From Promethearchaeota archaeon (GTDB taxonomy: Archaea > Asgardarchaeota > Lokiarchaeia > Sigyniarchaeales > SOKP01), in contig JAGXOA010000120.1 of the NCBI GenBank assembly GCA_019894715.1, positions 1 through 54,126 on the forward strand: 54,126 nucleotides of DNA, in the 5' to 3' direction. This document shows, piece after piece, positions 7,734 to 40,048 of the stretch. How positions within the stretch are numbered: the first letter of the stretch is position 1; the number at the start of each line of letters is the position of its first letter. Position numbers and translations under genes: made by a program. A model generated the notes under the pieces. It did not search any database and was not told where the DNA came from. It saw only the letters and a list, made by a program, of their open reading frames with translations.

Positions 7734-8267
7734 TTTTTATTCATTCCTCCACTTATTTAATAGTATCTTATTGTTAATTTTTAGATAATTTTTATTATCT
7801 TATATTTATTTTAGTATTTGTTATATATAAATGTGTTGGTTAAACTGAGCAAAAATATCACTTAATTTTAATCGACAAAAAACTTACTCATTGATAGAAA
7901 AAAAGTTTTTTACTAGTGAAGTCCATTATATGATTTGATGAATAAATTTTTAGCAATAATGATGTTTGTGATCTAATGATAGTAACTATCTAGTATTTCT
8001 GATGAGATTTGCATCCTTTTTATTATAATAAAAATATGAATTAAAGGATAGACTAACCTATAGATAATGAGATTAATTATATAATACATACCATCCCTTT
8101 ATTTAGTGATCATTATCGATATTATACAAAATTAAATAAAAATATATTATCTCACATATTGGAAATTAGCAAAATTAAAATAAACAATTAATATACCTTT
8201 ATTAATAAGAATATTATATTTATTCTTTAACTACTTATTAAAAATAATAAACCAAATTTGGTGATTT
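7734..8267. other. Divergent spacer between histone and coiled-coil gene
   Basis: A very AT-rich divergent intergenic region of about 530 bp. Apart from the likely histone promoter (TATA-like sequence near 7822-7831) and the ribosome-binding site at 8260-8264, I see no gene, repeat array or obvious RNA. Confidence 0.5.
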
Positions 8268-8270: not shown

Positions 8271-9113
8271 ATCAGTGTTAATTGGGAAAAAGCATATTCA
8301 AGACCTAATTCTTTTCAGAAAATAAAAAGTAAAGATCTACTTAAATTAAAAGATCGAATCTCAGATTTAGAAGGTGACCTTGAGCAATTCTTAGAAAAAT
8401 TAAGTAAATCTAAAGAAAAATACTTAATAACAGAAAGAAATTTTACAGAAATAATAGACAGAATCTCTAAAAATGAAAAAGATCTAAAATCAAATATGTT
8501 GGTCCTAAGAGAGAGATTGGAGAAAGCAGAAAATGAACTGAAAAAAAAAGATATAAAAATAAAATACTACGAGGGACCTTTACCAAAAATCAAATCAACA
8601 ACATCAATGCCCCAGAAAGAAGATTTCTCACATTCTTTAACCATGAATAAATTATCTCAAAAAATTGAAATTATCGAATTAAACTTACAGAAATTTAAAA
8701 CAGAACATATCAATGAATTCACGATCAATAAATCTGAAATCAATCAAATTAATACCAGATTAGATAACATAATTGAAAACTTTGAAAAAACAGTTCCTGA
8801 ATCAAATAAAGAAATAAGGAGAATAAAAGATGAACTATTGGTAAAAGATGAACAGATAAGGATCACTAAACAAGATTTAAATCGTGCAATAGTAAGTAAA
8901 GATCATATTATACTGAAATTAGAAAAGGACTTAGAAGCGAAAATAGATCAAGTCAATGATTTAACGAATACAATTGATGCCCTTTATACACAAATATCTG
9001 AAGTACAATGTGCTCCGAATGTTATTAAAAATATCATTGATATTATGCAGAATAAAGGTTTTATTTCAGATAAAGAATTTGAAAAGATTTTAGAGAAAGA
9101 ATTGATTATATAA
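8268..9113 (+). CDS. Coiled-coil protein, probably initiated at ATT
   Basis: Predicted 281-aa charged, almost wholly helical protein with heptad-like coiled-coil stretches (DRISDLEGDLEQFLEKLSK near the start; LEKAENELKKKDIKIK; DELLVKDEQIRITKQDLNRA). No enzyme motif or membrane segment is seen, and I do not recognise a family. The first ATG is at 8496, but the frame is open and clearly coding for 76 codons upstream (WEKAYSRPNSFQKIKSKDL and on), with no ATG, GTG or TTG there. The start is therefore taken at ATT 8268, three bases after GGTGA. A sequencing error changing ATG to ATC at 8271 would be the alternative. Role unknown; scaffold or filament-like function is only a guess. Confidence 0.7.
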   Translation: MISVNWEKAYSRPNSFQKIKSKDLLKLKDRISDLEGDLEQFLEKLSKSKEKYLITERNFTEIIDRISKNEKDLKSNMLVLRERLEKAENELKKKDIKIKYYEGPLPKIKSTTSMPQKEDFSHSLTMNKLSQKIEIIELNLQKFKTEHINEFTINKSEINQINTRLDNIIENFEKTVPESNKEIRRIKDELLVKDEQIRITKQDLNRAIVSKDHIILKLEKDLEAKIDQVNDLTNTIDALYTQISEVQCAPNVIKNIIDIMQNKGFISDKEFEKILEKELII

Positions 9114-32732: not shown

Positions 32733-34709
32733 TTAATCTATATTCCAAAAGGGATATAGTATTTGTGTAATTACATTATCTTTATCAGGTATAATTTCTA
32801 ATTGACTTTTCATCCAATTAGAAATCCATTTAATTTTATGTTTAAATCTACTATCCATAAAAATGATAGTACCCTTATCATTTAGCTTTCTAATTGGGCG
32901 TCCTGACGCTTGATTCGCCCTCTGAATTGCAGGATATAAATAAGCAAAATTCCAACCTTGATTTTCAAATACTTTATCATAATATTGAATTTTAGCCTCG
33001 ACTCGAGGTGTTGGTAGGTGATATGGAAATCCAGTTATTATAACAGCATTCATATAATTTCCAGGGTAATCTTCTCCCTCTGAATTTCGTCCCCCAGAAA
33101 CCCCTAAAAGAGCAGCTCCTTTATAAGGAGGATTTGCCATTGATTTAAAATCTTCAATTAATAAGGCATTCTCAGAAGCAGATAATCCTTGTTCCTCAAT
33201 AAATAGTTTCTTATTATTTTTTATAGCTATTCTTTCAATTCCATTACTAATTAAAGATCTTAAGATTCCATACGAGGCACAAAATATCCCAACATTTGCG
33301 GGAGTGCTATATAATACTTCGTCGATTTTTTGAATAATTTTTTTAAACATAGAAGGATTTCTATTATTTTTTTTTGTGTCAACACCATCGATAATTAGAG
33401 CTTTAATATTTTCTTTTTTAAAAGGTGATTTTGTAATAATTCCTTTATAAGATTTTCCACTTTGGTTCAATCCTATGAGATTATGATATACATATGGATT
33501 AATTGTTCCTGAAAGATGTAAAATTGAATGAGAATATTTTAGAATTGGTATAGTTATTTCTCTCGGATCAAGAGCAACGATTTCCATATTGATCGATTTT
33601 TTTTCATTTTTTTCTTTAATTGAATAGCAAAAAAAATAATTATCTGAAGATAAGGTTTTTATCCATGTTAACCAAAATTCTGCTAGCATTCCAACATAAT
33701 CACGAGAAACCAATCCATCAGCAGTTTTTTCTTCATGTATTGCAACACTAAATTCATATAAATCATTTACAAAGTTCTTAAATTCATTTAGATCATTTTG
33801 ACCTAAAGCTAAAAATATTTTATGTAACAATTTTTCAGGAGAAATTGATAATTCAATAGCATTAAGGTTTGTTTTCTTTTTTTTAAGATGATTTAGTATT
33901 ATTTTAGCAAAATCTTGCATTAATGATGGTGATCTATAAACCTCTAAATCTCTTAGACATAATCGTAGAGAATAGGGAGAGATTTTAAGAGAATTAATTT
34001 CCGTTGCCAAATCAATTATATTATGACATTCATCTATGACGAGAATGCATTCATGAAGTTCTTTTCCTATAAATTTTAAAAATGATTGTCTAATAAAGGG
34101 ATTAAGAATCCATTGGTAGTTACATATGATAATTTTCATTTCAGGTAAAAGAAATTTACTTAAAAAATAAGGACATAATTTATTTTCTTTGCATAGATTA
34201 ATAAGATCGTCCGCATCAATTGGTTTGTTGAAAAGGTCAGGAGAAATTAAAATAGGACTATCTAATCCATTTTTTTTTTTTAGCAAATTTAGAAAATGAG
34301 AACAATTATGATTATTTCTGAGATCTTTACAAATTGACATTGATTCATTGGAATTAGGTTTTAATGAAAGTAATGTTTTACTGAGACACATTTCATTTCG
34401 ACCTCGAATTGAAATACCATTTAATGTAAACTTTTCATTCTTTTTAGAGAGACTTTGTGAAATCTTTTTTAATTCTCTTATAACTCTTGCACTTTGTGAA
34501 TGAGTACGACAAAGATATATTATTTTTAAATCATATTCAACAGTAATAGGAAGGAGAGCACTTAATGCAATTATTGTTTTACCAGTACCATTTGGTGCTG
34601 ATAATAAAATATTTTTCCTCTCTCCAGCATTTTTCTCAATTTGTTGAATTATATTCTCCTGAGAAATTCTGAACTCATCATAAGGAAAGAATTTTTTATA
34701 GTCTATAAT
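32733..34709 (-). CDS. xpd: XPD/Rad3-like 5'-3' DNA helicase, probably initiated at ATT
   Basis: SF2 iron-sulfur helicase. From the ATT at 34709 it is 658 aa: FFPYDEFRISQENI at the N terminus, Walker A SAPNGTGKT (38-46), Fe-S cysteines in EMCLS, SICKDLRNNHNC and KLCPYF, Walker B as VIDECHN, and motif VI region QRANQASGRPIRK. The first ATG (34391) lies after Walker A; 106 codons upstream are coding without ATG, GTG or TTG. ATT is three bases after GGTGG at 34717-34713, and the next in-frame stop is 12 codons further up. A pseudogene is unlikely as the frame is intact. Confidence 0.88.
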   Translation of the reverse strand: MIDYKKFFPYDEFRISQENIIQQIEKNAGERKNILLSAPNGTGKTIIALSALLPITVEYDLKIIYLCRTHSQSARVIRELKKISQSLSKKNEKFTLNGISIRGRNEMCLSKTLLSLKPNSNESMSICKDLRNNHNCSHFLNLLKKKNGLDSPILISPDLFNKPIDADDLINLCKENKLCPYFLSKFLLPEMKIIICNYQWILNPFIRQSFLKFIGKELHECILVIDECHNIIDLATEINSLKISPYSLRLCLRDLEVYRSPSLMQDFAKIILNHLKKKKTNLNAIELSISPEKLLHKIFLALGQNDLNEFKNFVNDLYEFSVAIHEEKTADGLVSRDYVGMLAEFWLTWIKTLSSDNYFFCYSIKEKNEKKSINMEIVALDPREITIPILKYSHSILHLSGTINPYVYHNLIGLNQSGKSYKGIITKSPFKKENIKALIIDGVDTKKNNRNPSMFKKIIQKIDEVLYSTPANVGIFCASYGILRSLISNGIERIAIKNNKKLFIEEQGLSASENALLIEDFKSMANPPYKGAALLGVSGGRNSEGEDYPGNYMNAVIITGFPYHLPTPRVEAKIQYYDKVFENQGWNFAYLYPAIQRANQASGRPIRKLNDKGTIIFMDSRFKHKIKWISNWMKSQLEIIPDKDNVITQILYPFWNID

Positions 34710-34717
34710 ACTCCACC
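34707..34717 (-). promoter_or_regulatory. Shine-Dalgarno GGTGG with ATT start of XPD
   Basis: On the minus strand GGTGG (34717-34713), AGT, then ATT (34709-34707). The spacing is the same as at 8260-8270 and 40048-40038. The start gives MIDYKKFFPYDEFR, the length before FFPY expected of archaeal XPD. Confidence 0.65.
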
Positions 34718-34808
34718 AGAGAAACCTTGATATAATTAATTTGAAAACTAAAGATTATATTGCTAAAAACCATAAAAGTTTATTTATTAAGATAGTTTAA
34801 TAATCAAA

Positions 34809-39758: not shown

Positions 39759-40040
39759 TTACTCATTTATGAATCTACTACAAGTATCATTTAGCCTAAT
39801 AATAAGTTTATCTCTTGATTTCCAAACAATCCAACTATTACCTAATTTTTCAAAATGATATCCACAATACTCTTTGTTTTTAATTTCTTCAAGATTTCTT
39901 TTTACATATGTCCAAGAGAGATTTGTATCATCAACAATCTGTGCAATATCAACTGGTTTATTTTTTTCTAACTTGTTATTAATATATTCTAGAATTTTTT
40001 TAAAACCAGGGGTAGGATTGATATTTTTATTTGAAATAAT
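39759..40040 (-). CDS. Small winged-helix-like protein, probably initiated at ATT
   Basis: A 93-aa frame with no ATG, GTG or TTG in a usable position. It reads NPTPGFKKILEYINNKLEKN, KPVDIAQIVDDTNLSWTYVKRNLEEIKN and KEYCGYHFEKLGNSWIVWKSRDKLI, the pattern of a winged helix-turn-helix domain (DIAQIVDDTNLSWTYVKRNL as the HTH, then a beta wing). ATT at 40040 follows GGTGA (40048-40044) by three bases; a stop lies four codons upstream, overlapping that GGTGA. It is convergent with TFB. It is presumably a DNA-binding regulator; target unknown. Confidence 0.7.
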   Translation of the reverse strand: MISNKNINPTPGFKKILEYINNKLEKNKPVDIAQIVDDTNLSWTYVKRNLEEIKNKEYCGYHFEKLGNSWIVWKSRDKLIIRLNDTCSRFINE

Positions 40041-40048
40041 TATTCACC
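40038..40048 (-). promoter_or_regulatory. Shine-Dalgarno GGTGA with ATT start
   Basis: On the minus strand AGGTGA, ATA, ATT (40040-40038), then ATT TCA AAT. A second ATT follows, so the start could be either; the first has the spacing seen at 8268 and 34709. Confidence 0.6.

Follow-up and report, generated by a model that had tools for sequence, protein, structure and literature searches.

The XPD frame and other genes of the window

The window analysed (the whole stretch of 54,126 nt, which is contig C113 of a 3.36-Mb source genome in 288 contigs, from a Lokiarchaeia family labelled f1) carries on its minus strand a long helicase frame, bounded upstream by a TAA at 34757 and closed by a stop that ends at 32733. 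Its product matched the Pfam domains DEAD_2, HBB and Helicase_C_2, and the presence of a Walker A motif (GTGKT) in the N-terminal helicase domain together with HBB and Helicase_C_2 places it in the XPD/Rad3 class. The features concerned are given below, with ATH for ATA, ATC or ATT (AUH in mRNA) and SD for Shine-Dalgarno.

32733..34706, minus strand: coding sequence of the XPD/Rad3-type helicase, from the frame, Pfam and orthologues; predicted start ATA at 34706-34704, 657 codons before the stop
34389..34391, minus strand: first ATG of the XPD frame, located after Walker A and read as an internal Met, not as the start
34704..34706, minus strand: predicted XPD start codon ATA; ATA or ATC in 15 distinct orthologues, ATG in L012, L025 and L036
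34707..34713, minus strand: 7-nt spacer GAGTATT, whose last three bases are the ATT originally proposed as the start
34714..34717, minus strand: GGTG core of the putative XPD SD site, exactly 7 nt before ATH in 15 of 15 distinct XPD genes with an ATH start
8260..8263, plus strand: GGTG of gene 8271
8271..9113, plus strand: gene of a coiled-coil protein, function unassigned; start ATC, otherwise annotatable only from ATG 8496
39759..40037, minus strand: 92-codon gene; start ATT, the whole frame being devoid of canonical starts
40045..40048, minus strand: GGTG of gene 40037

As the original prediction had stated, none of ATG, GTG and TTG occurs in the XPD frame upstream of the ATG at 34391, and translation has to begin upstream of that codon for Walker A to be included in the product. 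The assignment of the upstream region to XPD was likewise borne out, both by Pfam and by the alignment with XPD structures, in which residue 7 of the frame pairs with residue 11 of human XPD; the alignment to human XPD begins at residue 11 and that to Rad3 at residue 7. Given these matches, the region before 34391, including SAPNGTGKT, is a real part of XPD.

The GGTGR-N3-ATT arrangement claimed for two further genes of the window was present at 8260 on the plus strand (GGTGATTTATTATC) and at 40048 on the minus strand (GGTGAATAATTATT). Upstream of ATG 8496 the coiled-coil gene had a coding score of +33 across 75 codons, and in its family the same conserved codon is ATC in the window and ATT or ATG in relatives, with [M]SxxW conserved. 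The 92-codon gene was conserved in 24 of the 25 family-f1 genomes and its relatives start with ATT (L316, L317, L320), ATA (L321), TTG or ATG. In XPD as well as in these two genes a second ATH directly follows the ATT, and according to the orthologues it is this second ATH, at GGTG+7, that serves as the start.

Position of the XPD start

The XPD frame had been proposed to begin with AUU in the context GGTGG-AGT-ATT. The context itself was confirmed, with GGTG at 34717-34714, and the idea of a non-canonical start preceded by a strong SD held; the start, however, was moved by the orthologues from the ATT (GGTG+4) to the next codon, ATA (GGTG+7). Under the ATT of the window, orthologues have AAC, ACT, TTC, AAA, AAT, AAG or CAA and no other start-like codon, and GGTG lies exactly 7 nt upstream of the following codon, which is ATA or ATC. 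In the three orthologues with ATG at the start codon GGTG was absent (0/3). Family-wide, XPD starts either at ATA/ATC with GGTG-N7 or at a canonical codon, usually without GGTG. The XPD of genus g6 (L037, L038, L059, L060) is two codons longer, and there GGTG and ATC are both shifted upstream with the 7-nt spacer kept. Taken together, the orthologue codons, the constant GGTG-N7 and the g6 shift place the start of the window XPD at ATA 34706-34704 and its SD core at GGTG 34717-34714. On this comparison, the gene very probably begins at AUA with GGUG exactly 7 nt upstream as the SD core, i.e., it belongs to genes with an AUH start (AUA, AUC or AUU) behind an SD, and N-terminal peptides of the protein would be expected to read MDYKKFFPYDEFR or DYKKFFPYDEFR. 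The comparison of orthologues originally suggested as a check thus gave a mixed outcome: some of them do have ATG at this codon, most have ATA or ATC with GGTG-N7, and the genome-wide enrichment described below is present.

The non-canonical XPD start is no sequencing error. The source genome is a fragmented assembly of 288 contigs, where misreading of an ATG, giving ATA, or truncation of the gene to a start at 34391 might be suspected; however, ATA or ATC with GGTG-N7 was found in independent assemblies of many species, a product begun at 34391 would be devoid of Walker A, and purifying selection acts on the 105 codons that precede 34391, with 17, 6 and 36 differences to the sister species G001 at codon positions 1, 2 and 3, respectively. 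The probability left to error or truncation is practically negligible.

The XPD genes of L006, L007 and L028 have about 73 additional N-terminal codons, which look like a zinc ribbon (MKFCPNCEKVLFPTNNRLYCKGC).

Recurrence of the arrangement and decoding of AUH

Among the orthologues of DtdA (D-aminoacyl-tRNA deacylase), seven distinct ones had ATT, ATC or ATA as the start, all with GGTG-N7 or N8 (a spacing of 8 in L206), and in L203 and L204 a stop TAA immediately precedes the ATT; GGTG was found in none of the nine with ATG starts. Another gene, which its motifs suggest to be FwdC-like (its Pfam match being GXGXG alone), starts with ATA in two genomes, G000 and G001, and the rest of the family genomes have ATG, GTG or TTG at the same codon. 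For the XPD, DtdA and 8271 families pooled, GGTG accompanied 28 of 28 ATH starts vs 1 of 17 ATG starts (p=3e-11), a value to be read as an association, since the family genomes share ancestry and the counts are not independent events. All intact orthologues that lacked a canonical start had GGTG-N6..8-ATH. These sets thus show AUU, AUA and AUC at orthologous start positions and a strong SD at a fixed spacing that is tied to the non-canonical codon, i.e., SD-led AUH initiation in sequence terms. Apparent ATA starts with other SD forms were seen at 1712 of L137 on the plus strand (GAGG-N7) and at 11668 of L044 on the plus strand (AGTG-N7); the genes are presumably Kae1-like and MobA-like, respectively, the names being based on motifs. 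On general grounds GGTG would be expected to pair with the anti-SD of 16S rRNA; no 16S 3' end of the source genome was found in the sequence analysed. A GGATCACCTCC match in L043, considered as a 16S 3' end, was rejected, as it does not resemble the end of a 16S gene.

The constant spacing has one further implication. At 7 nt the GTG inside GGTG is without exception offset from the ATH frame by one base, as would be expected if translation started at this GTG and shifted by +1 into the XPD frame. Such a route is scarcely credible: a conserved slippery site is lacking, in the window the GTG frame ends in TAA six codons after GTG, the DtdA of L206 has a spacing of 8, and orthologues starting with ATG have the same N-terminus without the GTG. 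Direct initiation at the ATH is the reading followed below.

The signal was also sought without reference to particular genes, using 1.07 Mb of two family genomes, G000 and G026: all tetramers at spacings 3-11 were scored before in-frame ATH against the other in-frame codons of the same leaders (1,304 tests). GGTG at spacing 7 came at the top of the 1,304 tests, with 13 of 1085 ATH vs 5 of 5526 other codons (p=2.2e-7); with the genomes taken singly it held first place in G026 and second place in G000. The same scan gave no GGTG-spacing-7 signal for control codon groups and no GGTG-N7-ATH signal in G042, a genome of the sister family f2. Raw counts of the in-frame codon at GGTG+7 were 8:1 for ATH:ATG in G000 and 6:2 in G026; ATG is the start of about three quarters of genes. 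The plain pattern GGTGRNNNATT, which had been expected to be enriched genome-wide, was so only mildly (268 vs 214 in the reversed control); the strong result came from the frame-aware test. Earlier versions of the tetramer scan took out-of-frame ATH or intragenic ATH as the reference; codon phase and stop codons dominated their outcome, and they were replaced. Fisher tests on leaders also cover spacing 6, at which GGTG supplies an in-frame GTG start of its own, and are not used as main evidence.

In 654 kb of the source genome, a scan for coding signal yielded a few dozen frames with signal reaching above the first canonical start, and the strongest of them include several with GGTG-N6..8-ATH exactly at the boundary of the signal. 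From these data, AUH starts are estimated at 1.5-3% of genes in this Lokiarchaeia family. Non-canonical starts therefore recur in the genome, as had been suspected, albeit with AUA more frequent than AUU and AUU more frequent than AUC, not with AUU as the main codon. That few ATG-start genes have an SD was also confirmed (41 of 379 in the source genome).

AUA, AUC and AUU are exactly the isoleucine codons, which would be in line with decoding by an Ile-carrying or a dedicated second initiator tRNA. The initiator tRNA, however, was found as a single locus with anticodon CAT in nearly every genome with a match, the source genome included. A tRNA search and an anticodon-stem pattern allowing any first anticodon base revealed no dedicated second initiator with a non-CAU anticodon, and ARAGORN called no tRNA at the other matches of this pattern (GGGYTNATAACCC places). 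Since, in addition, orthologues have ATG, TTG or GTG at the same codon, reading as isoleucine is very improbable. With a single CAT locus, the ordinary initiator, mismatched at the third position, is the likely reader of AUH, and AUH-started proteins most likely begin with Met.

An intron follows the anticodon of the initiator tRNA gene in many genomes; in L269 (G000 C214:42926-42966, minus strand) it lies directly after the anticodon, and relatives such as L155 are without it. At L188:1500-1603 ARAGORN, with introns allowed, gave a tRNA call with a CTA anticodon (Pyl label), possibly a spurious one.

aIF1 and start-codon stringency

The archaeal start-codon fidelity factor aIF1 is a SUI1/eIF1 protein and not an IF3. 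Its gene (SUI1, PF01253) had no canonical start in family f1, having ATT in 15 and ATC in 1 of 16 genomes, preceded in most by a stop at a distance of two to four codons, and an in-frame GTG as an alternative start in three g6 genomes; instead of GGTG-N7 the f1 leaders have GTGA, weaker and further away. In f2 two genomes have ATA without a canonical codon and others TTG or an ambiguous GTG/ATA. Outside the order, ATA behind GGAGG was found in f18 (3 genomes) and f12 (L369, L373, L375 and L377 for the two families together), the f16 frame (L398) lacks a canonical codon and has CTG 7 nt after GGTG as a possible start, and the gene starts with GTG in f23 and f13 and with ATG in f4, f9, f11, f22, f27 and f28. 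Archaeal aIF1 rejects wrong initiation complexes, and the Sulfolobus protein destabilises complexes on non-AUG mRNA (PMC6237735). The gene of a fidelity factor thus begins here at a codon which, on the literature, the factor discriminates against, as in infC.

In the mechanism we propose, GGUG exactly 7 nt upstream would place the AUA of XPD in the ribosomal P site and its pairing would keep the mRNA in register, so that a strong SD would offset the weak codon, which the ordinary initiator tRNA (CAU) would read as Met by third-position mismatch; the same GGUG-N7-AUH arrangement would start the other genes of the estimated AUH set. Being weak, the AUH codon would give a low output, a fraction of that of AUG, and make it dependent on the stringency set by aIF1. 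Since aIF1 destabilises non-AUG complexes, more aIF1 should mean less output from AUH genes, and with an AUU or AUC start of its own aIF1 would be expected to hold down the expression of its own gene and, on the same reasoning, of the other AUH genes. The AUH start of aIF1 suggests a built-in translation brake like that of bacterial IF3.

The frame, the start position, the link to the SD, the exchange of ATG and ATH and the start of aIF1 are supported by the sequences themselves; for the regulatory part, i.e., the low output and the control of AUH genes by aIF1, the chances appear about even. The main competitor to this part alone is that AUH starts are drift tolerated under a good SD and have no regulatory meaning, for which speak the A/T-rich genomes and the fact that one position may be ATG, TTG, GTG or ATH depending on the genome. 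On the other side, XPD and aIF1 keep ATH across genera, with the third base varying (ATA/ATC and ATT/ATC, respectively) without going over to ATG, GGTG is retained with ATH and mostly missing with ATG, and the fidelity factor itself is among the affected genes. Drift is regarded as a serious, if somewhat improbable, explanation. The broadest form of the regulatory reading, an Asgard AUH regulon in which aIF1 represses its own gene together with XPD, DtdA and others, and start-codon stringency acts as a global control parallel to that by IF3 and homologous to that by eIF1, is put forward tentatively, at slightly less than even chances.

One of the closest known parallels is bacterial infC, the IF3 gene, which starts with AUU in E. 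coli or AUA in S. aureus and is autoregulated (Butler 1986/1987, as cited in PMC13009471 and PMC9845219). The comparison with infC, already drawn in the original prediction, was strengthened by aIF1, which fills the role of IF3 in archaea and is also AUH-started: in both cases AUH is the start codon of the fidelity-factor gene. In contrast to infC, the present case is archaeal, many other genes share the start type and the autoregulation is a predicted one. In S. aureus, AUU or AUA starts with an extended SD are present in cvfC1, ccpN, citZ and infC and give about 10% of the AUG output in poor medium (PMC13009471). A strong SD with an AUH start, conserved between species, is common to both systems; unlike the four S. 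aureus genes, the family described here would use such starts in some 1.5-3% of its genes, on an archaeal ribosome with archaeal factors and with a GGUG core at a fixed 7-nt spacer. Eukaryotic eIF1 is autoregulated by way of the poor context of its AUG (Ivanov 2010, as cited in PMC6237735). The two proteins are homologous and both genes have a poor start site, the difference being that the codon of aIF1 is itself non-AUG.

For archaeal mRNAs one review lists the start codons AUG, GUG and UUG (PMC7531240), and in another SD sequences are stated to be rare in Lokiarchaea (PMC12993045). No reports of AUH starts in Asgard archaea were found in the open-access literature, within which an SD-led set of genes on AUH starts that includes an eIF1 homologue appears to be new. 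It offers a testable link between IF3 control in bacteria and eIF1 control in eukaryotes. Gene finders restricted to ATG, GTG and TTG truncate or miss such genes, aIF1 among them, and XPD loses its Walker A in this way.

The aIF1 genes of f1 (L361:1416-1740, minus strand, corresponding to G000 C56:21737-22048, minus strand, and L344-L368) had SUI1 scores of about 47-70 bits, compared to 79-86 bits in the best-scoring distant Asgard families.
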